A stretch of DNA of 41,281 nt from Fluviicola sp. GTDB lineage: Bacteria; Bacteroidota; Bacteroidia; Flavobacteriales_D; Crocinitomicaceae. The notes beneath the pieces are model-generated. The model had not been told where the DNA came from. It did not search any database and saw only the letters and a list, made by a program, of their open reading frames with translations. Of the stretch, positions 5,441 through 36,310 are shown piece after piece. The stretch is taken from contig NVXP01000010.1 of NCBI GenBank assembly GCA_002733985.1, positions 19,670 to 60,950 on the forward strand, written 5' to 3'. Within the stretch, counting starts at the first letter, position 1. Every line of letters starts with the position of its first letter. A program made the translations under genes and the position numbers.

Positions 5441-6709
5441 CTATTTCTTGTCTACTTCAACAGTTGCCATTTCTTCAGACTGATATTCACCGTTATCCAA
5501 TTTCGCTTTCATTTTAGAGAAAGTTTCAATTGTGTATTGAACATCCTCCAATGTATGAGCCGCTGTTGGAATCAAACGTAGCATGATTACATCTTTCGGT
5601 ACAACTGGGTAAATTACAATCGAACAGAAGATATTAAAGTTCTCACGTAAATCAAATGTCAAGTTTGTCGCTTCCGCTAAAGTTCCCTGTAAGAAAACTG
5701 GCGTAACACATGAATTTGTTGCACCAATGTTAAATCCATTCTCAACTAATCCAGTTTGAAGTGAACTTGCAATCTTCCACAAGCGTGCTTTGTGCTCAGG
5801 TTGAGTTCTTAATATTTCAAGACGCTTACGTGCACCAACAACAAGTGGCATTGGCAATGACTTAGCGAATACTTGTGAACGCATGTTGTAACGCAAGAAT
5901 TCAACAATATTTTCTTCAGCGCAAATAAATGCACCAATTGAAGCCATTGCTTTCGCAAATGTTCCAAATAAGATATCAATCTCATCATGAACTCCTTGCT
6001 CTTCTCCAGCTCCTTGTCCTTTTTCACCAACAGTACCAAAACCGTGAGCGTCATCAACAAAAAGTCTAAAGTTATATTTACCTGATTTTCTGAATTCAAT
6101 TAAATCTTTCAACCTACCTTGATCTCCAGCCATTCCGAAAACACCTTCCGTAATAACAAGGATTCCACCTCCAGTTTTGCCTACAATTCGTGTAGCACGC
6201 TCCATTTGTTTGTCGAAGCTTTCCATGTCATTGTGCTTGAACACAAAACGTTTTCCAGCATGCAGACGCATTCCATCTAAGATACAAGCATGAGCTTCAC
6301 TATCGTAAACAATGACATCATTTCGATCAACTACACTGTCAATCGCTGAAACCATTCCTTGATATCCAAAGTTGAGAAGAATTGTATCTTCTTTTTCCAT
6401 GAAACTTGAAATCTCAGCTTCCAGTGCTTCGTGTTCACTAGTTTGACCAGTCATCATTCTTGATCCCATTGGATAAGCCAATCCCCATTCTGCAGAAGCG
6501 TCAGCATCAGCTTTACGAACTTCAGGATGGTTTGCCAATCCAAGGTAGTTATTTACAGACCACACTAGGCACTCTTTTCCACGGAAAATCATTCTGTTTC
6601 CAACTTCCCCTTCCAATTTCGGGAAAGTAAAATATCCGTGAACACCTTTTGAATATTGTCCAAGAGGACCTCTATTCTTTCTAATTTTGTCAAATATGTC
6701 TTGAGCCAT
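5441..6709 (-). CDS. Alpha-oxoamine synthase: serine palmitoyltransferase or cysteate acyltransferase type
   Basis: The 422-aa PLP enzyme is of the class that condenses an amino acid with acyl-CoA/ACP. Features are SVNNYLGLANHPEV near the N-terminus, LFVDDAHGFGTVGEKG for PLP contacts, and FGTFAKAMASIGAF with Lys253 as the internal aldimine lysine. The length and the lead sequence (DIFDKIRKNRGPLGQY) match the Bacteroidota enzymes making sphingolipids (serine palmitoyltransferase) or sulfonolipids (cysteate fatty acyltransferase), rather than BioF or Kbl. The sequence alone does not let me choose between serine and cysteate. It is transcribed alone and convergent with the preceding gene. Its start is an ATG; the 372-base upstream region is shared with the divergent T9SS operon. 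Confidence 0.85.
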   Translation of the reverse strand: MAQDIFDKIRKNRGPLGQYSKGVHGYFTFPKLEGEVGNRMIFRGKECLVWSVNNYLGLANHPEVRKADADASAEWGLAYPMGSRMMTGQTSEHEALEAEISSFMEKEDTILLNFGYQGMVSAIDSVVDRNDVIVYDSEAHACILDGMRLHAGKRFVFKHNDMESFDKQMERATRIVGKTGGGILVITEGVFGMAGDQGRLKDLIEFRKSGKYNFRLFVDDAHGFGTVGEKGQGAGEEQGVHDEIDILFGTFAKAMASIGAFICAEENIVEFLRYNMRSQVFAKSLPMPLVVGARKRLEILRTQPEHKARLWKIASSLQTGLVENGFNIGATNSCVTPVFLQGTLAEATNLTFDLRENFNIFCSIVIYPVVPKDVIMLRLIPTAAHTLEDVQYTIETFSKMKAKLDNGEYQSEEMATVEVDKK

Positions 6710-7081: not shown

Positions 7082-10000
7082 ATGTTTACTCGTCTACTTT
7101 TATGTTCCTTAGCGCTCTTATCTACCGCCTCATCGTTATTTGCACAATGGGACTGGGTTGATAATTCTGTAAGCGGTAGTTTTGAAGGAGTTACAGACCT
7201 TGCTGTAGACGAAGTGCGTGACGTGATTTATTCCGTCGGTTATTTCGATGGAGCTGCGAATTTCCCGGAAATCGGTTTATCACACGGCTCCGAAGATGGA
7301 TTTGTCATGAAGTATGATTTAGCCGGAAACGTTCTTTGGGCTTTCGCTATTGGTGGATCAGGTAATGACCGCATAAATGGGGTGGCCATAGAGGAAACAA
7401 CAGGAAATATATTCATTACAGGGTTTATTGAAGGTTCTTTTGCAACAAACGCTACAAGTTTACAAGGAACTCCGGGAGGAACATCGGGTAACGTTACAGG
7501 TTTCATTGGAGGTGAAGATGCATTTGTTGCTTGTTATAATTTGCTGGGGCAACTTATTTGGAAAAAAATAATTGGCGGGTCAGATGTTGATAGAGGAATG
7601 GATATTACGGTAAATGTTGGAGGTGTTTATGCCACTGGCTTCTACGCGAATACATCTGGATTATCTTCAATTACTTCAATTATCCCTACGAATGGAGATA
7701 TCAATCATTTTGTAATAGCGCTAAACGTCTCAAATGGTAATACCTTATGGGATGCTGTACTTGGATCAAGTGTCGATGATTACGACATTCCTTTATTGAA
7801 TTCTACGATAAGGAGAACAGGTATTTCTTCTGACGCAAATAATGTTTATGTAGTCACATATTTTAACGGAGCTGTATACAATGTTTATGATGGATACGAC
7901 GTGCTTTCAGCAACTATTGTCGATCTTAATGCCTCAACCCAAGATTTTGTAGCGACATCTTATACGAATATAGGGAATCACAATTGGTCAGTGCTTTACG
8001 ATAACGTTGGTGCTATTGCAGCTGGTATTGATGTAACAAGTGATTGCAGCGGAGTATATGTCTCAGGAACACTGCATGATAGTGGTTCTTCTCCCGGTGG
8101 AGTCACAATTAACTCTGTCCATGATAATTTCTTTATTTCAAAATTGAATAAGACAAATGGCACAGAAATTTGGCTGAAAGAATTTGACAGTAAGTTCAAT
8201 CACGAAGACTACTTTGTTGGAATTGATGCCGATGGCTACGGAAATTTATACGCAGTAGGTCGATTAAGAGGATCGGATGTCGATTTAGGAATGGATTTGA
8301 ATTATTCCGGTGGACAAAACCACAGTGAAGTAATGATTGCGCACTTCCATACCGATGGTGTTTTTCAGAGTTTTGAAGTGATTCCAAGTAATAGTGCTGC
8401 TTGGGGGATGAGTATTGCAAGCTATAAGAATGAAAAATACGTTGTGGGAGGGTATTATAGCAATACGATCGCGTTCGATGCTCTCGTACCAAATCCTAGC
8501 TTGCAAAATGCATTTATTGCCACAAGGAATCTTCCTGAACCTCTTGTGTATGTTTCTGCTTCTGGGGATAGTCTCTTTTGTCAATCCGAAGTGAATCCTG
8601 ATCCAATATTAAATCTCCCAATAGGTGGAACTTTTTCTGGTCCAATACAAATTGTATTTGAAAACATTACCACTGGGAAAATAGATCTTTTGAACTCGAC
8701 ACCAGGAGGTCCATATACAATTACATACAGTGGGTATCCAATGGCGTGTACCGTGACACCTGTTGATTTCGAAATTTATATTGTAGCCAATGATGATGCA
8801 TCATTCACATATTCAACAGATCATTTTTGTAACAACGAAGCAAATCCTACTCCAACATCCATTGCAACTCTTGGGGGAACATTCACAGCACCAACAGGAT
8901 TAGTCTTGGCGAATAATTCAACTGGAGAAATAGATGTAGCAGCTTCAACAGTTGGTGGACCTTATTATCTAGTTTACACAACTAACGGAGTGATCTGTCC
9001 AAACAGCGATTCCCTTGAAATCTACATTGAAGATGCACCAGATCCATCCTTTGCGTATGCACAATCATCATTTTGCACTGGATCAGGTACGATTTCCCCA
9101 AGTTCAGTCACAGTTCCTGGAGGAACATTCAGTGGTCCTGTAGAAATCATTTTCGTGAATTCAGTAACAGGTGAAATTGACATATCAGCATCGACAATTG
9201 GTGGGCCATACACGATTCAATACGTAGCATCAAATACGTATTGCCAAGATTCTACAACATTCAGTCTTACCATTGATCCATCTGAGGACGCTTCATTCAC
9301 TTATTCAGCTACTCATTTCTGTTACAACGAAGCAAATCCTCTACCTACTTCGATCACAACACCGGGAGGGACGTTCTCAGCTACCATAGATCTTCTTCTA
9401 GTTAACAGTTCAACAGGAGAAATTGACGTTGCAGCGTCAACTATTGGTGGACCTTATTACCTTGTTTACACAACCAATGGCTTGACTTGTGCAGGAAGTG
9501 ACTCCATTCAGGTTTACATTGAAAGTGGTCCAAATCCTTCCTTTTCTTATGCGCAGTCAATAGTATGTATGCAATCGCAATCAGGAACAATTACACCGAA
9601 TTCAGTTGCAGTTCCTGGAGGAACATTCAGTGGACCTTCGGAAATTGTTTTCGTGAACACAACTACCGGAGAAATCGATATCAATGCCTCAACAATTGGT
9701 GGACCATATTCAATTGAATACCTCGTTTCAAATACCTATTGCCAAAAATCAAGCACCTTTGATATTATGATTATTGGTCAGGATGCTCTCATTTCTGTTG
9801 ATTATTCAGCAAGTGAATATTGTGTTTCTGATGAAAACCAGATTCCTGTAATCAATGGTGTGAGCACTGGTGTATTTAGTGGGCCTGCCTCAATTGATAT
9901 TGTGAATTCAACAACTGGTGAGTTCAGTCCATCGACATCTTATGCCGGCGGTCCTTATTTGATAAAATATGTAACGCTTGGTACGTGTCCAGATAGCATT

Positions 10001-10531
10001 GAATTATTCCTTACGATTTATGATGTCCCGTCAGCAGCATATGCAGGTGAGGATCAAGAGCTATTCTTCATTTTAACATCAACGCTCGAAGCAGATCTTC
10101 CAATTATGGGAGATGTAGAATGGTCGACTCTTTCTTCAGCTCTAATTGCTGATGAATTTGATCCAAACTCTGATGTCTCAAACTTGAGCTTAGGGACAAA
10201 CACGTTTACTTGGACAGTTACAAATGGCGCTTGTCCTTCAGTTTCTGATGAAATTAATATCGTAGTTCAAGATTTATTCATTCCTCAAGCAGTTACGCCA
10301 AATGGCGACGGTAAAAATGACTTTTTCGAATTTTATTCAATTGACGCAGTAACTTGCTCTCTTCAGATTTACAATCGCTGGGGACAAGTGGTTTATGAAA
10401 ATAGCGATTATCAAAACGAATGGTTTGGGCAAAGTTCTAAAGGAGAGGAGCTCGAGAATGATACGTATTTCTATGTAATTCTCATAGATGATTCGATTTC
10501 GTTTAACGGATACGTAGTATTGAAGAAATGA
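7082..10531 (+). CDS. Large T9SS type B cargo: SBBP-type propeller plus six Ig-like repeats
   Basis: The 1149-aa protein has a signal peptide (cleaved near residue 22, after SSLFAQ). Residues about 30-485 form an SBBP-like beta-propeller, with recurring IYSVGYFDG, DGFVMKYDLAGNVLW and IGGSGNDR elements. About six repeats of roughly 82 residues follow (about 485-985), each with GGTFSGP..., TGEID and GGPYxIxY motifs and paired cysteines. The C-terminus from about 1065 is the gliding-motility-associated type B sorting domain: AVTPNGDGKNDFF, LQIYNRWGQVVYE, and a terminal GYVVLKK. It is expected to be exported by T9SS and kept on the surface by its PorP/SprF partner. Its stop overlaps the next ATG (ATGA). 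The propeller and repeats suggest adhesion; no enzyme domain is seen. Confidence 0.9.
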   Translation: MFTRLLLCSLALLSTASSLFAQWDWVDNSVSGSFEGVTDLAVDEVRDVIYSVGYFDGAANFPEIGLSHGSEDGFVMKYDLAGNVLWAFAIGGSGNDRINGVAIEETTGNIFITGFIEGSFATNATSLQGTPGGTSGNVTGFIGGEDAFVACYNLLGQLIWKKIIGGSDVDRGMDITVNVGGVYATGFYANTSGLSSITSIIPTNGDINHFVIALNVSNGNTLWDAVLGSSVDDYDIPLLNSTIRRTGISSDANNVYVVTYFNGAVYNVYDGYDVLSATIVDLNASTQDFVATSYTNIGNHNWSVLYDNVGAIAAGIDVTSDCSGVYVSGTLHDSGSSPGGVTINSVHDNFFISKLNKTNGTEIWLKEFDSKFNHEDYFVGIDADGYGNLYAVGRLRGSDVDLGMDLNYSGGQNHSEVMIAHFHTDGVFQSFEVIPSNSAAWGMSIASYKNEKYVVGGYYSNTIAFDALVPNPSLQNAFIATRNLPEPLVYVSASGDSLFCQSEVNPDPILNLPIGGTFSGPIQIVFENITTGKIDLLNSTPGGPYTITYSGYPMACTVTPVDFEIYIVANDDASFTYSTDHFCNNEANPTPTSIATLGGTFTAPTGLVLANNSTGEIDVAASTVGGPYYLVYTTNGVICPNSDSLEIYIEDAPDPSFAYAQSSFCTGSGTISPSSVTVPGGTFSGPVEIIFVNSVTGEIDISASTIGGPYTIQYVASNTYCQDSTTFSLTIDPSEDASFTYSATHFCYNEANPLPTSITTPGGTFSATIDLLLVNSSTGEIDVAASTIGGPYYLVYTTNGLTCAGSDSIQVYIESGPNPSFSYAQSIVCMQSQSGTITPNSVAVPGGTFSGPSEIVFVNTTTGEIDINASTIGGPYSIEYLVSNTYCQKSSTFDIMIIGQDALISVDYSASEYCVSDENQIPVINGVSTGVFSGPASIDIVNSTTGEFSPSTSYAGGPYLIKYVTLGTCPDSIELFLTIYDVPSAAYAGEDQELFFILTSTLEADLPIMGDVEWSTLSSALIADEFDPNSDVSNLSLGTNTFTWTVTNGACPSVSDEINIVVQDLFIPQAVTPNGDGKNDFFEFYSIDAVTCSLQIYNRWGQVVYENSDYQNEWFGQSSKGEELENDTYFYVILIDDSISFNGYVVLKK
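8795..9781 (+). repeat. Tandem duplication of a two-domain module inside the adhesin gene
   Basis: Two in-frame units, 8795-9286 (164 codons) and 9287-9781 (165 codons), each contain an A-type and a B-type 82-residue repeat in the same order. Each unit begins with D-A-S-F-T-Y-S. Long exact stretches are shared, for example gttcctggaggaacattcag at 9113 and at 9611. More diverged repeats flank them on both sides (about 8530-8794 and 9782-10020). The pattern indicates duplication of an A+B pair rather than of single domains. Confidence 0.85.
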
Positions 10532-11439
10532 GAGTTCTTATCACCATAGCATTCCTTTTTTCTTTCTCCGCTTTTGGGCAATACTCCTCGCTGCAAAGTC
10601 AATACATGTTCAATCCAATTGCGATGAACCCTGCTGCAACAGGAAGCGAAGAGGTGATGAGTTTGGTCGGTACTTTTCGAGCGCAATGGATTGGATTCCC
10701 CGGAGCTCCTACTACGGAAGCATTAACACTTCATGCACCTTTAAAGAATTTTAACTCTTCGCTTGGAGTCCAACTCTACGCTGATCAAATCGGAGTGGAT
10801 AATCGTACAAGCGTGAATGGACTTTATTCGTATCGCTTTAAAATGAAGAATGCTTGTTTACGAATAGGGTTGTCAGGTGGATTGAGTTTTGTTCAGTCCA
10901 ATTATTCTGATTTACACGTTTTTACCGCAAGCGACGACCAGATTTCTAGTAATAGTCCAGTAGGAGTGCTTCCGAATTTTGGCGTTGGGATGTATTATAC
11001 CGCAGAAAAGTATTTTCTAAGTTTTTCCATACCTACTTTGTTAGGACATCGCTATGAAGACAATAGATTTCAAAGCTTTAGTAATCTAAGCAACTACAAC
11101 TTACTAGTTGGGGGTGGATATGAATTCAAACTGAAGAATGAGATGGGTTTTAAACCTTCTGTATTGTTAAAATTCAGAGTGAACAATAGACCACAAGTTG
11201 ATTTCAATGCAAAGGTGAAATTGAATGCAACGATTAATGTGGGAGTGTCTTATCGAACTGAAGAAGCATTAATTGGAATGTTTGAGGCGAAAGTCACGAA
11301 TCAATTTAGCGTGATGTATTCATTTGGGATGCCACTTAGTACTATTGCCAAAACTTCATTTGGGTCACATGAATTAAGCATAAAGTATAATTTTGTCTAC
11401 AAATCGAATTCTCAAGGACCGCGTTTTTCAGGATGGTAA
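10528..11439 (+). CDS. PorP/SprF family T9SS outer-membrane protein
   Basis: The 303-aa outer-membrane protein has a signal peptide (ending SAFGQ) and the family hallmark QYMFNPIAMNPAATGS directly after it. A 12-14-strand-type beta-barrel pattern follows with GLSGGLSFVQSNYSDL and GVGMYYTAEKYFLSFSIP. Genes of this family next to type B cargo are known to be needed for secretion or surface attachment of the neighbouring cargo. The ATG overlaps the stop of the large cargo gene (ATGA) and its own stop overlaps the next ATG by seven bases, so it is firmly in the operon. It is probably the dedicated partner of the 1149-aa protein. Confidence 0.92.
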   Translation: MRVLITIAFLFSFSAFGQYSSLQSQYMFNPIAMNPAATGSEEVMSLVGTFRAQWIGFPGAPTTEALTLHAPLKNFNSSLGVQLYADQIGVDNRTSVNGLYSYRFKMKNACLRIGLSGGLSFVQSNYSDLHVFTASDDQISSNSPVGVLPNFGVGMYYTAEKYFLSFSIPTLLGHRYEDNRFQSFSNLSNYNLLVGGGYEFKLKNEMGFKPSVLLKFRVNNRPQVDFNAKVKLNATINVGVSYRTEEALIGMFEAKVTNQFSVMYSFGMPLSTIAKTSFGSHELSIKYNFVYKSNSQGPRFSGW

Positions 11440-13556
11440 AAAGTCTTATTACATATCTAATTTTAATGTGTTCGTTCGCTTCGCAAGCGCAAGAAACTTC
11501 GAAGTTTACAGTTCAGGAAGTTCCAGTTCTGATGAGTGGAGAGGTTTATTCACCAACTTTTAAAGATTCCTTGCTGGTTGTTTGTGGCACTAGGAAAGAT
11601 CGAATCGCTTATACGCATCTTGATAAAAATGGCAAGGAGCCTATTGACTTATATGTTCTCAATCCGGACAATGCCTATACATATGAACGTTTTGATAAGA
11701 AATTCCGTTCAGACTTTCATGACGGACCGATTTCATTCAATGAAGCCGGTGATCAATGTATAGTATCTAGAAATCTTCGTTTGGATCAGCGATTTAAAGC
11801 CTTGCAAGAAGATGAGAATCAGCTTGGACTTTTTCATAGTCAGTTTGAAAACAATGAATGGACCTCGCCAGAACCGTTATTGGTGAATAATGTTGCCTAT
11901 AATTGTACACATCCAGCGCTCTCGGCAAATGGAAAAACACTTATCTTTTCAAGTAACATGCCCGAAGGGATAGGTGGCTACGATCTTTGGAAAATAGAAA
12001 AGTCAAACGGTACGTGGGGAGAACCCGAAAACCTTGGGAGTAGTGTGAATACCTCTTCGAACGAATTCTTTCCTACATGGATTGGAAATACACTGTACTT
12101 CTCAGCGAATAGAAATGTTTTCGGAGGACTTGACATCTACGAAGTAAAAGGAAACGGAGAAACTGCAAGTACGAAGATTCTTGAACAACCATTGAACAGC
12201 GAAAAAGATGATTTTGGAATGATTTCAAATTCTCAAGGTAAAGCAGGATATTTTTCCTCGAATAGAAATGGATCGGATCAACTTTGGTCGTATGATATGC
12301 TCTTTCCAGAATTCGAAAACTGTGATTCACTTGTAAATGATGATTTTTGTTATACACTGCTTGAGGAAACAGCATATGAGCTTGGAGGAATTGAATCTCT
12401 GATTTATGAGTGGGATATAAATGGCGTCAAGAAATACGGTTATGAAATTGACTATTGCTTTCCAGGAGCTGGAGAATATGTAATTAGTGTTGATATTATC
12501 GATACAGTCGTTAAGAAGACCTACGCCAATCAGGCGAGCTACACACTTGTGTTAAATAACGAAGAACAACCTTACATTACTTCTCTTGATTCCATTCAAA
12601 TTGGACAAGAATTAACCTTGGACCCCAGTAGAACGCATTTGCCAGGTGTTCAGATTGATTCCTATTATTGGATGATTTCTGATGGGACCTTGTTCACAAC
12701 GAAAACCCCAACCCATACCTTCAACAAGACTGGATTGTACAAGGTTAAATTGGGCGTGTTAGGAGTTAAAAACGGAGAACCATTCAAAGATTGTTCTTAC
12801 AAATATATAGTAGCTACAAACGACCCTGTTGAGTCGGTATCAATTAGTCCAGTTAAGCCAATGGGTGTGTTCGAACAAGAAGGACGAATTACTGAAAGTA
12901 TCCTCCCAATGACTTCTTCAGATAGTGCAACAGTTGTACACAGTATTGAAATTGCGAGCTCCTTAACCGAGCTTACAGATTCCAATGGGATTCTAGCCCC
13001 AGCAATTGAGAACTATATCGTAAACACCTCGTATGACCCTACAGATTCAATATATCGATATTCGATTGGTAAGTGGTTGAGCATTGCAGACGCTCATGAA
13101 ACATGGATGGATATTATGAAGATGGGATATGAAGATGCTTCGATTTTGTCACAGGAAACAAATTCTTTGAAAGATTTACCTCTAAACGAGTCTTTTTCCT
13201 TGGAAAATGTTCAATTTGACAACAATAAATGGGAGGTTCGAGAAGAAGCCAAGGAAACGCTTGAAATATTGGTATTATTGCTGAAAGAATATAAAGATGT
13301 GAGATTACTGATATCTGCGCATACTGATAATGTTGGTAGATTTGAAGATAATTTAATTCTCTCCGAGAAAAGGGCAAATGCAATTTTAGATTACCTCACC
13401 AATTCAGGGCTTGATAAAGGACGTCTTGAAGGAATGGGGGTAGGCGAAGCAGAACCTAAAGATACAAATGACACACCAGAAGGCAGGTCCAAGAATCGCC
13501 GAGTAGAATTTAAATTAATTACAACTCAAGAAGTTGAAATATTAATGAATGAATAA
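11433..13556 (+). CDS. OmpA-family lipid-free envelope protein with PD40 and PKD domains
   Basis: The 707-aa protein has a signal peptide (ending SFASQAQ). Three PD40/WD40-like blades follow (about 140-290), with SANGKTLIFSSNMPEG, GNTLYFSANR and GKAGYFSSNRNG, then PKD-like segments (about 330-465; PGAGEYVISV, THTFNKTGLYKVKLG). A variable linker precedes the C-terminal OmpA peptidoglycan-binding domain (about 595-700), which has FDNNKWEV, SAHTDNVG and GRSKNRRVEF. This architecture is common beside PorP/SprF in Bacteroidota and is thought to anchor the secretion or adhesin assembly to peptidoglycan. It overlaps both neighbours by seven to eight bases. No N-terminal lipobox cysteine is seen. Confidence 0.88.
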   Translation: MVKSLITYLILMCSFASQAQETSKFTVQEVPVLMSGEVYSPTFKDSLLVVCGTRKDRIAYTHLDKNGKEPIDLYVLNPDNAYTYERFDKKFRSDFHDGPISFNEAGDQCIVSRNLRLDQRFKALQEDENQLGLFHSQFENNEWTSPEPLLVNNVAYNCTHPALSANGKTLIFSSNMPEGIGGYDLWKIEKSNGTWGEPENLGSSVNTSSNEFFPTWIGNTLYFSANRNVFGGLDIYEVKGNGETASTKILEQPLNSEKDDFGMISNSQGKAGYFSSNRNGSDQLWSYDMLFPEFENCDSLVNDDFCYTLLEETAYELGGIESLIYEWDINGVKKYGYEIDYCFPGAGEYVISVDIIDTVVKKTYANQASYTLVLNNEEQPYITSLDSIQIGQELTLDPSRTHLPGVQIDSYYWMISDGTLFTTKTPTHTFNKTGLYKVKLGVLGVKNGEPFKDCSYKYIVATNDPVESVSISPVKPMGVFEQEGRITESILPMTSSDSATVVHSIEIASSLTELTDSNGILAPAIENYIVNTSYDPTDSIYRYSIGKWLSIADAHETWMDIMKMGYEDASILSQETNSLKDLPLNESFSLENVQFDNNKWEVREEAKETLEILVLLLKEYKDVRLLISAHTDNVGRFEDNLILSEKRANAILDYLTNSGLDKGRLEGMGVGEAEPKDTNDTPEGRSKNRRVEFKLITTQEVEILMNE

Positions 13557-14520
13557 CTGCATGAATTATATTTACTCAATCTTATTACTCTTAATTCCGA
13601 GCAATCTATTGTTTGGACAAGCAGTGCCTTCACCAGAAGAAAATATACCGTATCTCGTTACGTTCGGAAGTGAAGGTGATAAATCTTGGGGAGATGATGA
13701 CTTCTGTCAGGTATTCTTCTTTGTTGTTCCAAAAACTCAAAAAACATCGATCTATTTTCGTGTATACGATCCAGGAACAGGAAGTGTGATTGATGAGAAA
13801 AAAGGTGAGTTTAATACAAAGACAAAGTTCAGCGTGTTTGGAGGAACTGGTTGCATTACGAATAAAGATGCACGAGGAACTAATCCAGTAGGGAAGTGGT
13901 ACAGCGGAAATAACCTTGCGATGAAAACATTCGGAAATGAATACACGAGTAAATGGTACACTTTTGGACCATTCAACCCTACTTCAGGAGAATACTCAAA
14001 GAAGTATGGTGGGTATGTATTCAAATTGAGTGCCCGCGGAATTTCTGGTGATGATGGAAATCTATACAAGTACTTCATGAGTACTTCAAGCACTCAAAAC
14101 AGTGCTGTGGAAGGAGGAAACGCATTTACATTTGAGTATACATTTAGACTGAATGATCAAGCGGGTGAGGTTTCCCATGTTTATCCATACATCGATAGCA
14201 ACGTTATTTCTGTGAAACAAGCGAATTTTGACTGGGACAATGACGGAGAGATGAAAATTATCACCAATACCCGCCTAAGAATTCCATTAACGAAATCGGG
14301 AGATGGAGATTGGAAAATGAGTGAGCACAAAGTACTCAAGACAGAGAAAGAATCAACGTTTGATGTTCAATTTCACAAGAACAAATCTGCACCCGCAAAG
14401 AACAATAATGTCAGTTTCTACATAACGAATCAATACGGTGAGTCGCTGCCATTTTTTACGGTGCCAATAGGCGGAATTCCTAAACCAAAGTCCATCATTA
14501 GAATAACGAAAAAGAAATAA
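13549..14520 (+). CDS. Unrecognised secreted protein in the T9SS operon
   Basis: The 323-aa product has a signal peptide (cleaved after SNLLFGQ) and a beta-rich body without repeats. I do not recognise the family. Visible features are an acidic, aromatic N-terminal segment GDKSWGDDDFCQVFFFVVP, two cysteines (DDFCQ and GTGCIT) that could form one disulfide, a calcium-loop-like NFDWDNDGEMKI, and a basic tail RITKKK. There is no T9SS sorting domain, lipobox or barrel signature, so a periplasmic location is most likely. It overlaps the OmpA gene by eight bases, and its stop shares one base with the next ATG. That places it between an envelope anchor and a periplasm-facing phosphatase and suggests a bridging or sensing role (inference). 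Confidence 0.8.
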   Translation: MNNCMNYIYSILLLLIPSNLLFGQAVPSPEENIPYLVTFGSEGDKSWGDDDFCQVFFFVVPKTQKTSIYFRVYDPGTGSVIDEKKGEFNTKTKFSVFGGTGCITNKDARGTNPVGKWYSGNNLAMKTFGNEYTSKWYTFGPFNPTSGEYSKKYGGYVFKLSARGISGDDGNLYKYFMSTSSTQNSAVEGGNAFTFEYTFRLNDQAGEVSHVYPYIDSNVISVKQANFDWDNDGEMKIITNTRLRIPLTKSGDGDWKMSEHKVLKTEKESTFDVQFHKNKSAPAKNNNVSFYITNQYGESLPFFTVPIGGIPKPKSIIRITKKK

Positions 14521-17500
14521 TGCGCTTTCTACTATTTAGTTTCTTTCTACTTTTTTTTGGTTTTAATGGATTTTCACAGAATTTCCGTTTCAATGAATTT
14601 GGTATCGAAGATGGGATGGCTCAAAATTTCATCTATTCCATGGATCAAGATGCCAAAGGCTATCTGTGGATAGGTACTGGAGAAGGGCTTTGTCGTTTCG
14701 ATGGTCAAAATTTTAAAACATTCACAACTAAAGATGGACTTGCTGAAGACCTTGTTACAAGTACGTTCATTGGATCAGACGATATTCTTTGGATTGGTCA
14801 CAACAGTGGTGAACTTTCGCGGCACGACGATGGAGGGATTACAAGTTTTGGAGACAATAGTAAAGTGATTAGTACGATTAATGGCTTGAGCGTTCAGGGC
14901 ACAGATGTATTGTTTGTCAGTCAAAATGAGGGATTATTTTCACTTGTTTCTGGAAAGTATGTTAAGATCGGGAAATTTGATGCATCACATTTCTACGCAA
15001 TTGAACACTTAGATGAATCCAACTTGATTCTTGGAACAGACAAGGGGTTAATTCATTTGATCAAATCAAATAATAAATGGACGAAAGGAAAAAGTTACCT
15101 GAAGGATCGGCAAATTAGTTCAATCACCCAAAGTAAACTGAATCGTAATTTATTTGCTGCAACGAAAGACGGGATCCTTTGCCAATTGAAGCTTTCTGGG
15201 GATAAGCTAATGATTCGACAGTGGAACGCAGATTATCTGGGGGATACTGAAATTAGGTCAGTAATTCAGGATAATCAAATGAATCTCTGGGTGGGTACCA
15301 CTAGAAAGGGCTTGATTAAAATTCCAATAACTGCCATCAATGGGAGCGGTGATAACACCGTAATTTACAATACAAAAACAGGATTGAATTCGGATGTCAT
15401 TCAAACCGTATTTCAGGATCGAGAAGGAAGTGTTTGGATAGGTTCATTTGGTGCTGGACTGAGCTCAATGTCAGATGATTTCTTCACCTTTTACGAATAC
15501 AAAAATGAAAATCAAGCCAGGAACGTAACGTCCATTTTGATGGATGGCGACTATCGATGGTTTGGAACGAAGACAGGATTGATCCGAACAAATCTAAATG
15601 GTACTGGTGAATTGAATATTACCATTCCAAATGGACTTCTAGAATTAACGATAACAGCATTGTACGCAAGAGAGCACAAATTGTACGTTGGAACCAAAAA
15701 TTCAGGAATGTATGTTGTAGAACAGAACGAAACTACGGCAAAAAAAGTGGAGTGGAACCTCGGGAAATTATGCGATCAAGTAAACCAAATTGATGCAAAT
15801 GCCGATTTTCTTTGGGTTGCAACTAATGGTGGTCTAGTTTCATTTGATCTCGAAACATACGAAACAGAAGTCTATGGGACAGAGAGTGGCTTAGGCCATA
15901 ATGCCATTCAAACAGTAATGGTGGACCACCTTGGCGATATTTGGATTGGAACGTATAGTCGATTCGTGTATAAAATCACTGAAATTGGGATTGATCAAAT
16001 CGAATTGGTGGATGTTGGTCAACTACAGGTGAAATGTATTATTGAAGACCTTGAGTATCACGTTTGGGTTGGAACCGCAGAATCGGGTGTGTTTAAGTTG
16101 GTGAAAGGTAAGATTGAACATTTTTCAATGCGCGATGGACTCAACTCGAACTATATTTATTCCCTCAAGAATGACGTTAATAACAACATGTGGGTTGGAC
16201 ATCGAGGTGCTTTGAGCAAGATTCTAGTGAAAGATAATTCCATTACTACGTATGATTATAATTTTGGTATTCAAGGGCAAGTCAATACACGTGCCATGTC
16301 ACTTGATAGAAACTATGATCTTTGGATAGGGACAGATAATGGAGCAATCCAATACAACGCGGCGAAAGATGTAAATAATGAACTTCCACCAATCATCAGT
16401 TTGGTTAAAATTTGGATCGATGATAAAGCGTACGACCCGACAAAAGAGATTCTTTTGCCATATGGAAGTTACCGAATTCAGTTCGAATATATTGGTGTCA
16501 GCTTAAAGGATTCTAAAAAGATCACCTACAAGTTTATGCTGAAAGGTCACGACGAGATTTTCTCGGATGCAACAAAGGGAATGACTGCTTCTTACAGTCG
16601 TTTATCTGATGGTGAATACACGTTTTATGTGAATGCTTACAATGGACAAGGTGTTGGGAATTCTACTCCTGCGAATATCCGAATTGTCATATCTAAACCA
16701 TTTTGGAAACAGGTTTGGTTCATTCTGCTCGTGCTTTTAGCGTTCGTAGGAATTATATATGGATTTATTCAATACCGAACATCTCGCCTTCAGAAAGCAA
16801 AGGAATTACTTCAGGTACAACTTAAAGAGAAAACGAAGGAAGTAGTTGAAAAGGCAGAAAAAATTCACCTCATAAACAAGGATCTTACGGATAGTATCAA
16901 TTATGCTGAGCGTATCCAGAAATCGATTTTGCCAAATGTCAATTTACTACATGAAACGCTGCCGAATTCATATTTGTTTTTCCAACCTCGTGATGTCGTT
17001 AGTGGCGATTTCTATTTCATTGAACGAATCAACAACAAGTTAATCATTGCATGTGCAGATTGTACTGGACATGGAGTTCCTGGGGCGTTTGTGAGTATGA
17101 TTGGGTCGGTGACGCTTCGGAATATATATTCCATGGCAAAATTCCAATGGAAAACGCCAGATGAGGTGCTCGAGCAATTGGATGAAGAAGTACAAAACAT
17201 CTTGCATAGAAAATACCAAGGAATTGAATCTGAACCCGATCTTTTGCAGGCGGATGGAATGGATATTTCTTTATGTGAAATTGACCTCGATACAAATGAA
17301 GTATTAATTGCTTCTGCCAAGCGTACAAGTCTGATTCGTAGAAATGGGGAAATTGAGAAACTCAAAGGTGATAACCGGTCTATTGGGGGGCATGATTTAA
17401 TGAAAACAAAATTCACGCTCAATAGATTCAAGTTGGAAAAAGGAGACGCATTGTACCTGTTTACTGATGGTTTTACCGATCAATTTGGTGGTACGAATGA

Positions 17501-17657
17501 TAAAAAGTTGATGATTTCTGGTGTACTGGAAATGCTCGAAGCGCTTGAAGAAGTGAATCGGGAACATCACTTTCAAGCCATCCGTTCCAATTTCGCTTTG
17601 TGGAAATCAACGACTCCTCAAGTTGATGACGTATTGTTTATCGGACTACTCTTTTAG
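14520..17657 (+). CDS. Transmembrane two-component-type propeller/Y_Y_Y sensor with cytoplasmic SpoIIE (PP2C) phosphatase
   Basis: The 1045-aa protein has a signal peptide (ending NGFSQ) and a large periplasmic ligand-sensor made of Reg_prop blades (about 25-630; recurring DxxGxLWIGT-like motifs such as DAKGYLWIGTGEGLCRFDG). A Y_Y_Y domain (about 640-725) and one membrane helix (about 731-752) follow. A coiled coil (QVQLKEKTKEVVEKAEKI) with INYAERIQKSILP leads into a SpoIIE/PP2C domain (about 820-1045) with metal residues in VVSGDFYF, ADCTGHGVPGAF and VDDVLFIGLLF. It lacks kinase and DNA-binding parts, so its output is dephosphorylation of a serine/threonine phosphoprotein. Such phosphatases usually act on STAS anti-sigma antagonists or similar partners. 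It is the last gene of the overlapping operon. Confidence 0.9.
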   Translation: MRFLLFSFFLLFFGFNGFSQNFRFNEFGIEDGMAQNFIYSMDQDAKGYLWIGTGEGLCRFDGQNFKTFTTKDGLAEDLVTSTFIGSDDILWIGHNSGELSRHDDGGITSFGDNSKVISTINGLSVQGTDVLFVSQNEGLFSLVSGKYVKIGKFDASHFYAIEHLDESNLILGTDKGLIHLIKSNNKWTKGKSYLKDRQISSITQSKLNRNLFAATKDGILCQLKLSGDKLMIRQWNADYLGDTEIRSVIQDNQMNLWVGTTRKGLIKIPITAINGSGDNTVIYNTKTGLNSDVIQTVFQDREGSVWIGSFGAGLSSMSDDFFTFYEYKNENQARNVTSILMDGDYRWFGTKTGLIRTNLNGTGELNITIPNGLLELTITALYAREHKLYVGTKNSGMYVVEQNETTAKKVEWNLGKLCDQVNQIDANADFLWVATNGGLVSFDLETYETEVYGTESGLGHNAIQTVMVDHLGDIWIGTYSRFVYKITEIGIDQIELVDVGQLQVKCIIEDLEYHVWVGTAESGVFKLVKGKIEHFSMRDGLNSNYIYSLKNDVNNNMWVGHRGALSKILVKDNSITTYDYNFGIQGQVNTRAMSLDRNYDLWIGTDNGAIQYNAAKDVNNELPPIISLVKIWIDDKAYDPTKEILLPYGSYRIQFEYIGVSLKDSKKITYKFMLKGHDEIFSDATKGMTASYSRLSDGEYTFYVNAYNGQGVGNSTPANIRIVISKPFWKQVWFILLVLLAFVGIIYGFIQYRTSRLQKAKELLQVQLKEKTKEVVEKAEKIHLINKDLTDSINYAERIQKSILPNVNLLHETLPNSYLFFQPRDVVSGDFYFIERINNKLIIACADCTGHGVPGAFVSMIGSVTLRNIYSMAKFQWKTPDEVLEQLDEEVQNILHRKYQGIESEPDLLQADGMDISLCEIDLDTNEVLIASAKRTSLIRRNGEIEKLKGDNRSIGGHDLMKTKFTLNRFKLEKGDALYLFTDGFTDQFGGTNDKKLMISGVLEMLEALEEVNREHHFQAIRSNFALWKSTTPQVDDVLFIGLLF

Positions 17658-17734
17658 TCCCATTTATACCTGTATTGTATTTGTTTCTTGATGTTTAAGT
17701 ATATTGTGTACTACACTATCACTAGAAGATCAGT

Positions 17735-18151
17735 ATGCAGACAGATCATATTTTTATAATTGATGATGATAAATTCTTTGCGAAGTACTTTATCAAGAAA
17801 TTTGAGCTGATCGTTAACGATAAAGTTGAATTTCATCATTTTACTAGTCTGACATCTGTTTTTACTGCAAGTTTAACGATAAAGCCATCATTGATCTTTC
17901 TGGACAATTTCTTGAAGGAGGGGAGAGGATTTGAATCGATTCCTGAACTGTGCAAACGATATCCGGAAGCAGAGCTTATTCTGATATCTGCGAGTAAAAG
18001 TCAAGAATTAATTGAAAAGGCTCATAAAAATGGAGCTTCTCAATTTATTTTCAAAGATGACCTGCTTATGAAAAACATTTCTGAGCGCTTAACTGAAAGA
18101 TTGAGCAGATCAAAGAAACGAAAATTCTGGACGAGCTTCTTTAAACCTTAA
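17735..18151 (+). CDS. Stand-alone response-regulator receiver
   Basis: The 138-aa protein is a single REC domain: acidic pocket D10-D11-D12, phosphoacceptor Asp57 in LIFLDNFL, Ser85 at the conserved Thr/Ser position (LISASK) and Lys107 (FIFKDD). A basic tail (SRSKKRK) follows, with no output domain. It begins 77 bases after the SpoIIE gene on the same strand. GTGTA-c-TACAC, a short dyad, lies at about 17706-17716 and could be a regulatory site. The last base of its stop abuts the stop of the convergent peptidase gene. It could signal to or from the preceding operon, but the cognate kinase is not visible. Confidence 0.85.
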   Translation: MQTDHIFIIDDDKFFAKYFIKKFELIVNDKVEFHHFTSLTSVFTASLTIKPSLIFLDNFLKEGRGFESIPELCKRYPEAELILISASKSQELIEKAHKNGASQFIFKDDLLMKNISERLTERLSRSKKRKFWTSFFKP

Positions 18152-19507
18152 TTACAGATTCAAATCAAGCAGGTAGAGGAGTGATGCAACTGCAGCGGCA
18201 CCAAGTTCCAATTCTCTCTTGTTTACGTTCTCAAATACGTCGCTAGGGGCATGATGAAAATCAAAATAGCGCTGTGAATCCGGAACAAAACCAAACAATG
18301 GAATTTCTGGATAGTATTTTTTTAGTGGTCCAATATCAACTCCACCGTATCCTTTTTCGAAAACATGAAGATCATAATGAGTTAAATCCGATTCAAAAGA
18401 CTGCAGTAAAGTCACGAATTCATCAGAACCATCACAATGGAATCCGCGTGGAGTAAATCCACCGCGATCACTTTCAATTGCAGCAATTTGCTTTTCGCCC
18501 TTTTCTTTCGCAATACTGGCATACGATTGTCCTCCACGATTTCCGTTCTCTTCATTCATGAAGAAGACTAGGCGGAGTGTGTGTTTCGGTTTGTAATTTA
18601 AGGTCTTTAAAATGCGTAATGCTTCCAAGCAATGAACAATTCCTGCTCCGTCATCGTGAGCACCTTCTCCTGTGTCCCATGAATCCAAATGTCCTCCAAA
18701 CGTAATAATCTCATCTGGCTTTTCTGTCCCCGTCATTTCGCCAATTACGTTGTACGACGTTGCGTCAGGATATGATCGGCAGTCCATTTCTAATACAAAA
18801 CGTGCCTTTCCTTTTTTTAAGATGTCCGATAATTTCTCAGCATCTATTGTGGACAATGCAGCCGCTGGAATGCGTTCAACAGAGTCTACGTAGTGCATTG
18901 AACCAGTATGCGGGTGTTCGTCAACTGGAAGTCCCAATGATCGAATTAAGATAGCAGACGCTCCCAGTTTTGATGCTTCAACGGCACCGTTTCCCCGCAT
19001 TGCATAACAACCTCCGTAAGCGCGAAATGTATTAATCTGTTGCTCATCCATGTGTTGATTGACGAATACAATTTTTCCTTTCACTGAATTTGGATTCGCT
19101 TTTTTTAGAGCATCAAGTGTTTTGAATTCAATCACGTCAGCTTCCATAGAACCATTTGTCCCAATTGATCCACCCAGAGCCAACAAGTGAACTTTGAATA
19201 ATTGTCCATCTTTTGATTTGATCCAACCTGCTTCTTTCGTCCCTCGTTCCCAGTGTGGAACTTGAATTTCTTGCAAGTAAACTTTGTCAAAACCGTATTC
19301 TCTCATCTTAGCCTCGCCCCAATAAACAGCCATTTCTGCTTCTGCAGATCCTGAAATTCGAGCTCCAATATCTTTACAGAGACTTCGTAGGTCTTCGTAT
19401 GCTTCTCCATCTGATAGAGCTGTGTTGTACACAGATCGAATGAAAGTCGAATCGTTTTGTGCCTTAGCAGAGAAGGAAAGAAGTAAAAGGAGGAGAATGC
19501 GGTACAT
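18152..19507 (-). CDS. Secreted M28-family zinc metallopeptidase
   Basis: The 451-aa protein has a signal peptide (ending FSAKAQ), a PA-like insert (about 120-245) and an M28 catalytic domain. The co-catalytic zinc ligands are present: His273 with Asp275 (GGHLDSWDTGEG), Asp285, the catalytic and metal glutamates in MNEE (Glu319-Glu320), Asp347 (ESDRGG) and a His at 418/419 (FDFHHAPSD). The architecture matches the carboxypeptidase Q-like/glutamate carboxypeptidase-like branch. It should act outside the cytoplasmic membrane on peptides; the exact specificity cannot be read. Its stop immediately follows the stop of the convergent receiver gene, with no terminator between. Confidence 0.9.
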   Translation of the reverse strand: MYRILLLLLLSFSAKAQNDSTFIRSVYNTALSDGEAYEDLRSLCKDIGARISGSAEAEMAVYWGEAKMREYGFDKVYLQEIQVPHWERGTKEAGWIKSKDGQLFKVHLLALGGSIGTNGSMEADVIEFKTLDALKKANPNSVKGKIVFVNQHMDEQQINTFRAYGGCYAMRGNGAVEASKLGASAILIRSLGLPVDEHPHTGSMHYVDSVERIPAAALSTIDAEKLSDILKKGKARFVLEMDCRSYPDATSYNVIGEMTGTEKPDEIITFGGHLDSWDTGEGAHDDGAGIVHCLEALRILKTLNYKPKHTLRLVFFMNEENGNRGGQSYASIAKEKGEKQIAAIESDRGGFTPRGFHCDGSDEFVTLLQSFESDLTHYDLHVFEKGYGGVDIGPLKKYYPEIPLFGFVPDSQRYFDFHHAPSDVFENVNKRELELGAAAVASLLYLLDLNL

Positions 19508-34683: not shown

Positions 34684-35960
34684 GCGAGCACTTTATTACT
34701 TAATGTTTGTGTTCTATCCGGTCCAACCGAAACTACCGTAATTGGTACTTCCAATTTTTGTTCCAAATACTGAACATAGTTTTTCAATTCAATTGGAGCG
34801 TCGTCGAACGAGTTTAGTTTCGTTGTGTCACAATTCCATCCTTTGATTTCTTCGTAAACAGGAACAAGTTCTCCATCAGTAACGTCGTACGGGAAGTAAT
34901 CGTATCGTTCGCCATCAATTAAATAATGTGTACAAACGCTAATTGTATCAAATGCATCGAGAACATCTGCTTTCATCATTGAAAGTTCAGAAACTCCGTT
35001 GATCATGATTGCATATTTCAATTGAGGGATATCAACCCAACCGCATCTTCTTGGTCGACCTGTTGTCGCTCCAAATTCGCTTCCTTCCTTACGGATTCGT
35101 TCACCAACTTCATTGTCTAGCTCAGTAGGGAATGGTCCACTACCAACGCGCGTACAGTATGCTTTGAAAATTCCGATTACCTCACCAATTTTTGTTGGAG
35201 CAATACCTAAACCTGTACATGTTCCAGCAGTAACTGTATTCGAAGAGGTAACAAAAGGATAGGTTCCGAAATCAATATCAAGCATTGTTCCTTGAGCACC
35301 TTCAGCTAAAATTTTCTTTCCAGCTTTCAATGCATCGTTGAGGAATTGCTCACTATCGATTGCCTTCAATTCTTTCAATTCAGAAATCGCTTGAAGCCAA
35401 GGACCTTCTAATTCAGATAAATTGTATTCGAAATCTGGGAAGCGTTTCAACATGTCCTTATGCTTATTAACCAAGGCAGTGTATTTTGCTTCGAAGTTTG
35501 GCGAGAAGATATCTCCTACACGCAATCCATTTCGACCCGTTTTGTCCATGTATGTTGGACCGATTCCCTTCAATGTAGAACCAATTTTATCTTTTCCTTT
35601 TGCAGCTTCAGATGCAGCATCTAAAATTCTGTGAGTAGGAAGAATAAGATGGGCTTTCTTAGAGATGACCAACCGCGATTTAAAATCGATGTTGTATGGA
35701 GCCAATTTCTCCAATTCAGCTTTAAAAATAACAGGATCAATCACGACACCATTTCCGATTACGTTCAGTACTCCCTCACGGAAAATACCAGAAGGAATCG
35801 TGTGAAGGACATGTTTTATCCCTTCAAATTCAAGTGTGTGACCTGCATTTGGTCCACCTTGAAAACGTGCGATGATGTCATATTTTGGCGTCAAAACGTC
35901 AACAATCTTTCCTTTGCCTTCGTCACCCCATTGTAAACCAAGTAAAACGTCTACTTTCAT
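34680..35960 (-). CDS. purA: Adenylosuccinate synthetase
   Basis: This enzyme makes adenylosuccinate from IMP, aspartate and GTP, the first committed step to AMP. The 426-aa length is normal. GDEGKGK with catalytic Asp13 is at residues 12-18, NAGHTLEF carries the catalytic histidine, and GIGPTYMDKTGR, GAQGTMLDIDFGTYPFVTSS and TGRPRRCGWVD are all present. The ATG overlaps the upstream STAS stop as ATGA, and its own stop overlaps the OstA gene start. It therefore sits third in a four-gene coupled operon: fur, STAS, purA, ostA. Confidence 0.98.
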   Translation of the reverse strand: MKVDVLLGLQWGDEGKGKIVDVLTPKYDIIARFQGGPNAGHTLEFEGIKHVLHTIPSGIFREGVLNVIGNGVVIDPVIFKAELEKLAPYNIDFKSRLVISKKAHLILPTHRILDAASEAAKGKDKIGSTLKGIGPTYMDKTGRNGLRVGDIFSPNFEAKYTALVNKHKDMLKRFPDFEYNLSELEGPWLQAISELKELKAIDSEQFLNDALKAGKKILAEGAQGTMLDIDFGTYPFVTSSNTVTAGTCTGLGIAPTKIGEVIGIFKAYCTRVGSGPFPTELDNEVGERIRKEGSEFGATTGRPRRCGWVDIPQLKYAIMINGVSELSMMKADVLDAFDTISVCTHYLIDGERYDYFPYDVTDGELVPVYEEIKGWNCDTTKLNSFDDAPIELKNYVQYLEQKLEVPITVVSVGPDRTQTLSNKVLA

Positions 35961-36310
35961 TTCGTTGTATTAAAAAATTCAATCCCAGCTGCTTCGTTTT
36001 CGCAGATGGTATATACTTCTGTTAGTTTTGCTATTTCAAAGATCTTCTTCACATTTCCAAAGATGTTTGTGAGAACTAAATCGCCCCCCATTATTCTCGA
36101 TTTGGTGAGTGTGCGCATGAAGAATCCAATTCCAGATGAATTCGTATGCGTCAAACCTGTTAGGTTGAAGACGATCCGGTAGTAATTCTGATTTAAATGA
36201 TCGAAAACGTCTCGTTCGAAATCGAGGTAGTCTTCATCAGTTGTTATTTTCCCATTGAAGGTATAAACGATAACTGGGTCGTGTATGGTTATGTCGTAGG
36301 TTAAACTCAC
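35957..36310 (-). CDS. STAS-domain protein (anti-anti-sigma type)
   Basis: This is a 117-aa single STAS domain. The central motif is [12 protein letters not shown]: Ser58 aligns with the phosphorylated serine of SpoIIAA/RsbV, while the preceding conserved aspartate is asparagine (Asn57). The rest ([39 protein letters not shown]) follows the fold. It starts with GTG at 36310, overlapping the fur stop as GTGA, and its stop overlaps purA. No RsbW-type kinase gene is adjacent. A SpoIIE phosphatase is encoded at 14520-17657, a possible but unproven partner. Confidence 0.88.

Follow-up and report, generated by a model that had tools for sequence, protein, structure and literature searches.

Why should a secreted surface protein and its outer-membrane partners be encoded in one tight cluster with a transmembrane signalling phosphatase? 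The question is raised by positions 7082–18151 of a 41,281-nucleotide stretch of Fluviicola sp. DNA (contig NVXP01000010.1 of assembly GCA_002733985.1, positions 19,670–60,950), the whole of which is called the window here. The cluster contains genes for a predicted type B cargo of the type IX secretion system (T9SS), a PorP/SprF-family protein, a PD40-PKD-OmpA protein, a secreted protein without known family (termed Unk) and a SpoIIE-type sensor phosphatase, followed by a stand-alone receiver. Comparison across Bacteroidota shows that the first five genes form an anciently conserved, co-inherited transenvelope module and not a local arrangement. Together, the data suggest that the cell monitors its own surface protein or envelope via a reversible protein-phosphorylation switch.

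All six genes lie on the forward strand. Calls of open reading frames and domain profiles identify the T9SS type B cargo of 1149 amino acids (7082..10531), the PorP/SprF-family outer-membrane protein of 303 amino acids (10528..11439), the PD40-PKD-OmpA protein of 707 amino acids with PorE-like architecture (11433..13556) and the Reg_prop/Y_Y_Y/transmembrane/SpoIIE sensor phosphatase of 1045 amino acids (14520..17657). Unk, with 323 amino acids, precedes the phosphatase (13549..14520, alternative start 13561), and the receiver of 138 amino acids (Response_reg, 1.5e-10) follows it (17735..18151). A preliminary description of this DNA had reported that the five genes overlap or touch, with the receiver behind them, and this is borne out: successive overlaps across 7082–17657 measure 4, 7, 8, and 1 base pairs (bp), and the receiver starts 77 bp past the phosphatase gene. 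Because of these overlaps and the short spacing, and because the flanking genes (5441–6709 and 18152–19507) lie on the opposite strand, 7082–18151 suggests itself as a single transcription unit. Terminator-like sites showed no excess over shuffled sequences, and the promoter/terminator scan as a whole stayed at shuffle level and is uninformative. As judged by eye, each product of the five overlapping genes carries an N-terminal signal peptide.

The arrangement is found well beyond this genome. Of 240 genomes searched from the same family, 13 contain Unk, and one more, G011, gives a weak match. The sensor phosphatase adjoins Unk in all 15 neighbourhoods of strong matches, most of which have the cargo, PorP, and PD40/OmpA genes in front. 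All six genes, receiver included, are common to the window and its same-genus relatives G143 and G129, and receiver homologues also lie inside the clusters of G107, G109, and G110. A scan of GTDB representative genomes yielded 327 Unk relatives; locus counts were taken from the best 80 of these, with up to 10 kb of flank and six gene profiles built here. The sensor directly follows Unk in 76 of the 80 loci, some of which are cut by contig ends and one of which (L101) has an output other than a phosphatase. A PD40/OmpA gene directly precedes Unk in 58/74 loci, and the complete trio of cargo, PorP, and PD40/OmpA genes lies upstream in 50 of the 65 loci with enough sequence. Median distances between successive genes are −1, 1, 31, and 7 nucleotides. 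The loci come from Flavobacteriales, Bacteroidales, Marinilabiliaceae, and one Flexithrix, and the intact order spans Flavobacteriales and Bacteroidales/Marinilabiliales. The survey of co-occurrence that the preliminary description had proposed thus finds the five-gene order recurring across orders, with the phosphatase linked in most relatives over short gaps.

Phylogenies agree with common inheritance. On a tree of 103 phosphatase domains, 72 of them Unk-linked, the label changes 4 times (2 of these changes are forced by starred branches), compared with about 27 times in shuffles, and 61 Unk-linked phosphatases, including that of the window, form one clade spanning orders. Similarly, 53 of the 54 operon PorPs form a clade of their own with support 90; all 19 paralogues sampled from the window's genome fall outside it. 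When the operon PorP profile was run over the 240 family genomes, 12 genomes scored at least 366 bits and all of them were Unk genomes (12/13); none of the other 227 reached the level of an operon PorP, the next score being 313 bits. The association between operon PorP and Unk has a Fisher p of about 2e-19, a value to be read with the relatedness of the genomes and the nine profile rows taken from tested loci in mind. Since operon members went into the phosphatase and PorP profiles, the score gaps of both are partly circular; G107, G108, and G148, which are outside the rows of the PorP profile, still score 415–459 bits.

These results bear on the simplest explanation, namely chance or mere co-expression, in which an adhesin operon happens to have an unrelated sensor behind it. 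Single adjacencies are indeed cheap in this genome, where profile searches find 24 PorP and 13 SpoIIE matches. However, none of the other SpoIIE matches adjoins a PorP gene, and the order recurs in other Bacteroidota orders, which argues that the gene order is not accidental. With spacing and clades kept across orders as well, we consider coincidence very improbable. Elsewhere in the genome, on contig 174 (G000; L157:5315–19899, reverse strand), a second PorP gene and that of a 1436-residue SpoIIE protein share a strand and lie about 6–9 kb apart, separated by genes of the opposite strand.

The first three proteins point to a cargo held at the cell surface. The 1149-residue protein is a predicted T9SS type B cargo, the C-terminal region of which (1066–1149) matches CHU_C (6.8e-22, 77.8 bits, cut-off 27) and Bac_Flav_CTERM (TIGR04131, 52.2 bits, cut-off 35), both above the curated cut-offs. 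It had been described as a type B cargo with a propeller; the sorting domain stands, whereas the N-terminal propeller is reduced to a weak SBBP-like match (44.7 bits vs a cut-off of 400). The cargo also contains Ig-like internal repeats. Its neighbour matches PorP_SprF (PF11751; 3.3e-62, 211 bits, cut-off 22.3) and TIGR03519 (219 bits, cut-off 90.55), and its C-terminal tail reads GPRFSGW. In the gliding adhesin/carrier pair SprB-SprF, which shares the combination of type B cargo and PorP/SprF partner, a C-terminal Cys-X-Cys motif of SprF provides the tie to the gliding track through GldK (PMC12635249). This motif is found in the periplasmic C-tail of none of the 53 operon PorPs, including that of the window, so that these proteins more probably serve as static anchors than as gliding carriers, and the gliding-adhesin reading is disfavoured.

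The third protein combines PD40, PKD, and OmpA domains, and no TPR was found in it by the domain profile search. It was rejected as a true PorE, scoring 204 bits against the cut-off of 600 of the PorE model, and is PorE-like in architecture, with PD40 and OmpA in common. In Bacteroidales, its counterparts have PD40 and two PKD domains and no OmpA domain. The same side-by-side genes for a type B C-terminal-domain cargo and PorP-like/PorE-like proteins are known from F. johnsoniae and P. gingivalis, where PorP-like proteins serve as cargo anchors and cargo that does not move is proposed to be attached to the wall by PorP-PorE-like pairs (PMC9143113). That system is described there with neither Unk nor a sensor phosphatase, both of which are present in the operon.

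The sensor phosphatase comprises Reg_prop repeats (9e-26), a Y_Y_Y domain at 664–724 (4e-9), and a SpoIIE/PP2C domain at 839–1040 (2e-17). A single clear internal transmembrane helix at about 732–750 is followed by basic R/K residues, and these two features place the propellers, by prediction, in the periplasm and the PP2C domain in the cytoplasm, as the preliminary description had proposed. A solved serine phosphatase, 6k4e, is matched at 3.9e-28 by the phosphatase domain, and the metal-site Asp residues, such as D830 of the window protein, are conserved in the family. In comparison with the SiaA equivalog NF038263 the protein reaches 151 bits against a cut-off of 700, and through its C-terminal part alone; the domain is thus classed, from its profile score, as SiaA-like and not as SiaA. 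Among solved structures, the sensor part is closest to hybrid two-component sensors of the gut Bacteroides type (4a2l, 3v9f, and 3ott), a class known to sense carbohydrate. These share the periplasmic Reg_prop/Y_Y_Y sensor with the operon protein, the output of which is a phosphatase instead of a kinase-receiver-AraC chain. The exception is Flexithrix dorotheae DSM 6795 (L101:9983–15106), where Unk is followed by a full hybrid two-component regulator with Reg_prop, Y_Y_Y, HisKA, HATPase, receiver, and AraC domains. As the output is swapped here and the propeller sensor type retained, Unk goes with the periplasmic sensor whatever the output.

Unk was passed over in the preliminary description, and it is the more telling gene. 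It represents a new secreted protein family, as judged from profile searches: no Pfam or NCBIfam model scores above its curated cut-off, the best for the window protein being GBD_ATRN with 15.1 bits against 27. Inspection by eye finds a signal peptide and no lipobox, and no T9SS tail was found in it. With an alignment of 65 sequences, structure prediction gives a predicted local distance difference test score (pLDDT) of 92 and a predicted template modelling score (pTM) of 0.88, compared with a pLDDT of 78 with 14 sequences. The model shows tandem β-sandwich domains (22–182 and 194–303). Foldseek and VIA-align return generic jelly-roll matches, led by a porphyran-binding module with a Z of 8.3, which is near background, and we therefore read no function from them. 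Unk is the sole element common to all variants of the locus, those with trio and sensor (most), with the sensor only (11), and without an adjacent sensor (4). Because Unk was the query, this ubiquity is partly by construction, and the informative part is that either partner can be missing in turn.

Unk also occurs in other settings. In other Bacteroidota, proteins of some 1600 residues with numerous PKD domains begin with an Unk domain (L141–L145 and L148; weaker in L146, L147, and L150). Neighbours of these proteins include Cache-HAMP histidine kinases or a cyclase and LysM/FecR proteins, and SpoIIE genes are present in 3/9 such loci. In several uncultured Bacteroidota (L045, L049, L053, L054, L055, and L075), an acyltransferase and/or thioredoxin-domain gene replaces the trio before the Unk-phosphatase pair (domains were checked in L045, L048, L049, and L075). 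Moreover, G066 and G110 have a second Unk-phosphatase paralogue (L030:1777–3048 and L031:6087–7349), located after dnaB, a protein of about 420 residues without family, and an OmpA/PKD/TPR protein.

The properties of sensor and Unk are compatible with a ligand sensor that controls an adhesin, the main rival to the explanation we favour below. Unk and the propeller would together recognise a glycan or a fragment of the wall, and the phosphatase would tune the production or use of the surface protein, so that the cargo is output and not input. The carbohydrate-sensing relatives of the sensor and the β-sandwich fold of Unk, with its background-level porphyran-binding match, fit this explanation, as do the cargo-less Unk-sensor pairs and the AraC-type transcriptional output in L101. 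However, Unk keeps a mean column identity of 60% in the 65-row alignment despite its diverse hosts, unlike a receptor for varied external ligands, and the gene overlap with PorP and PD40 is kept over orders. We regard ligand sensing as a real possibility, with a probability well short of one half.

Alternatively, the system may watch the envelope in general, with Unk and the PD40/OmpA protein sensing peptidoglycan or outer-membrane attachment and the cargo and PorP being passengers. A PD40/PKD(/OmpA) gene indeed stays before Unk where PorP and cargo are absent (L030, L031, L064, and L102), and the Unk-PKD proteins occur near LysM/FecR proteins and Cache-HAMP kinases. This wall-integrity sensor is nevertheless unlikely, given that the third protein has no OmpA domain in Bacteroidales and that the full trio is kept in most loci (50/65).

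A candidate for the cytoplasmic arm comes from relatives of the window. In Pseudomonas aeruginosa, T68 of SiaC, within LLYLNTSSIK, is dephosphorylated by SiaA and phosphorylated by SiaB (PMC7647112). The phosphatase gene of G107 and G108 is separated from a same-strand trio, which starts about 4 to 6 kb further downstream, by a hybrid histidine kinase gene, a receiver gene, and two small genes of the SiaC family (PF09345, E 1e-27 to 1e-33). In G109, G110, and L044, too, the cargo gene is immediately preceded by a SiaC gene, and in G108 a SiaC gene stands before Unk. A third SiaC gene of G110 (L040:11040–11438) is inserted between Unk and phosphatase and accounts for the unusual gap of 641 nucleotides there. 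In G102, Unk and phosphatase are directly followed by a SiaB-family kinase and SiaC, within a compact signalling set (L032:3138–11081) that also includes a LytTR response regulator, a small PKD-like protein, and a histidine kinase/receiver/Hpt protein.

Cluster SiaC proteins score below the SiaC equivalog cut-off, and their region equivalent to T68 reads YYNTASSK, YFNTSTS, MYMNSSSA or similar, with Thr/Ser at the position. SiaB/SiaC-type genes are also present beside 2 of 14 non-Unk phosphatases (L186 and L192), which indicates that the SiaC pairing belongs to the phosphatase type. The SiaC family is thus the likely, predicted substrate of the operon phosphatase. This result gives a probable name to the cytoplasmic Ser/Thr phosphoprotein guessed at in the preliminary description, as far as the clusters of relatives are concerned. 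A STAS-domain protein encoded alone at 35957–36310 of the window (reverse strand) was rejected as a substrate; its gene lies between those of a Fur-type regulator and adenylosuccinate synthetase, and SiaC is better supported.

We favour, tentatively and at a little under even probability, an explanation in which the state of the cargo/anchor complex feeds back via the phosphatase on a SiaC-type protein. PorP and the PorE-like protein, the latter bound to the wall, would keep the cargo fixed in place at the surface, and Unk would act as a periplasmic adaptor or ligand of the propeller sensor and connect the sensor with the anchor complex. Depending on whether its cargo is present, anchored or loaded, this complex would alter phosphatase activity on the SiaC-type protein, the phosphorylated and free forms of which would switch a cytoplasmic target and thereby close the loop. 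Such feedback is supported by the order and tight spacing kept across orders, the PorP and phosphatase clades, and the SiaC genes in the clusters of relatives. It is further supported by the missing Cys-X-Cys in operon PorPs, the SiaA-like phosphatase domain, and the occurrence of Unk with the same sensor in L101. A bolder proposal, which we hold to be doubtful, is that Unk founds a family of periplasmic adaptors reporting the state of anchored T9SS cargo to propeller sensors, in a cargo-specific feedback circuit, the cytoplasmic arm of which is a threonine switch of SiaA/SiaB/SiaC type.

Several observations weigh against feedback from the cargo complex. Among the 15/65 loci without the complete upstream trio, PD40/OmpA is kept in three (L064, L073, and L102), the trio is downstream in one (L036, the G108 locus), and in 11 the Unk-sensor pair has none of the three genes in its vicinity. 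Furthermore, Unk is without an adjacent sensor in 4/80 loci (L060, L073, L078, and L082), two of which, L078 and L082, retain the complete trio; a second Unk with a sensor is encoded in the genomes of L060 (L085) and L078 (L064). Owing to these trio-less pairs and sensor-less loci, the sensor need not sense the cargo, and the coupling to the phosphatase, called strict in the preliminary description, holds as a prevalent association for which that word is too strong. The N-termini of the cargo are highly variable in length across relatives and hardly alike between orders. In the window's genome, SiaB and SiaC are paired on contig 102 and each has a second copy elsewhere (SiaC on contig 58, SiaB on contig 44); none adjoins the operon, so the pairing is a prediction there. 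The SiaC arm is accordingly a well supported prediction for the relatives and a weaker one for this genome. Overall, the observation made in the preliminary description is confirmed and its interpretation is supported in part, namely in the conserved gene order and in the periplasmic sensor with a cytoplasmic phosphatase; a loop that reports cargo export or anchoring is a plausible proposal.

Both halves of the operon are of known kinds, a cargo-PorP-PorE-like set and a SiaA-type switch, and a literature search confined to open-access papers suggests that their coupling via a new family is undescribed. It found no paper linking SpoIIE with type IX secretion, subscription journals being outside its scope. 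SiaABC(D) of P. aeruginosa also has a membrane-bound PP2C/SpoIIE phosphatase, and the SiaC/SiaB families and the position of the phosphosite recur in relatives' clusters (PMC7647112). The operon differs in its Reg_prop/Y_Y_Y sensor, which is not that of SiaA, in its coupling to T9SS cargo, in scores below the SiaA and SiaC equivalog cut-offs, in the unlinked SiaB/SiaC of the window's genome, and in that no SiaD cyclase was seen. PorX/PorY likewise tie signal transduction to the T9SS. They regulate machinery genes by two-component signalling, whereas the gene of the operon sensor belongs to the same cluster as those of a single cargo and its anchors.

Because a single cargo and its anchors come together here with a periplasmic sensor, joined in relatives by the phosphoprotein on which that sensor is expected to act, the operon makes the monitoring of T9SS cargo export or anchoring testable. 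The operon further brings to light a widespread and so far unnamed protein family, whose fold is predicted with confidence and whose partners are consistently of one type, namely transmembrane sensors. Named isolates carrying the operon are Labilibacter sediminis, Thermophagus xiamenensis, and Plebeiobacterium.

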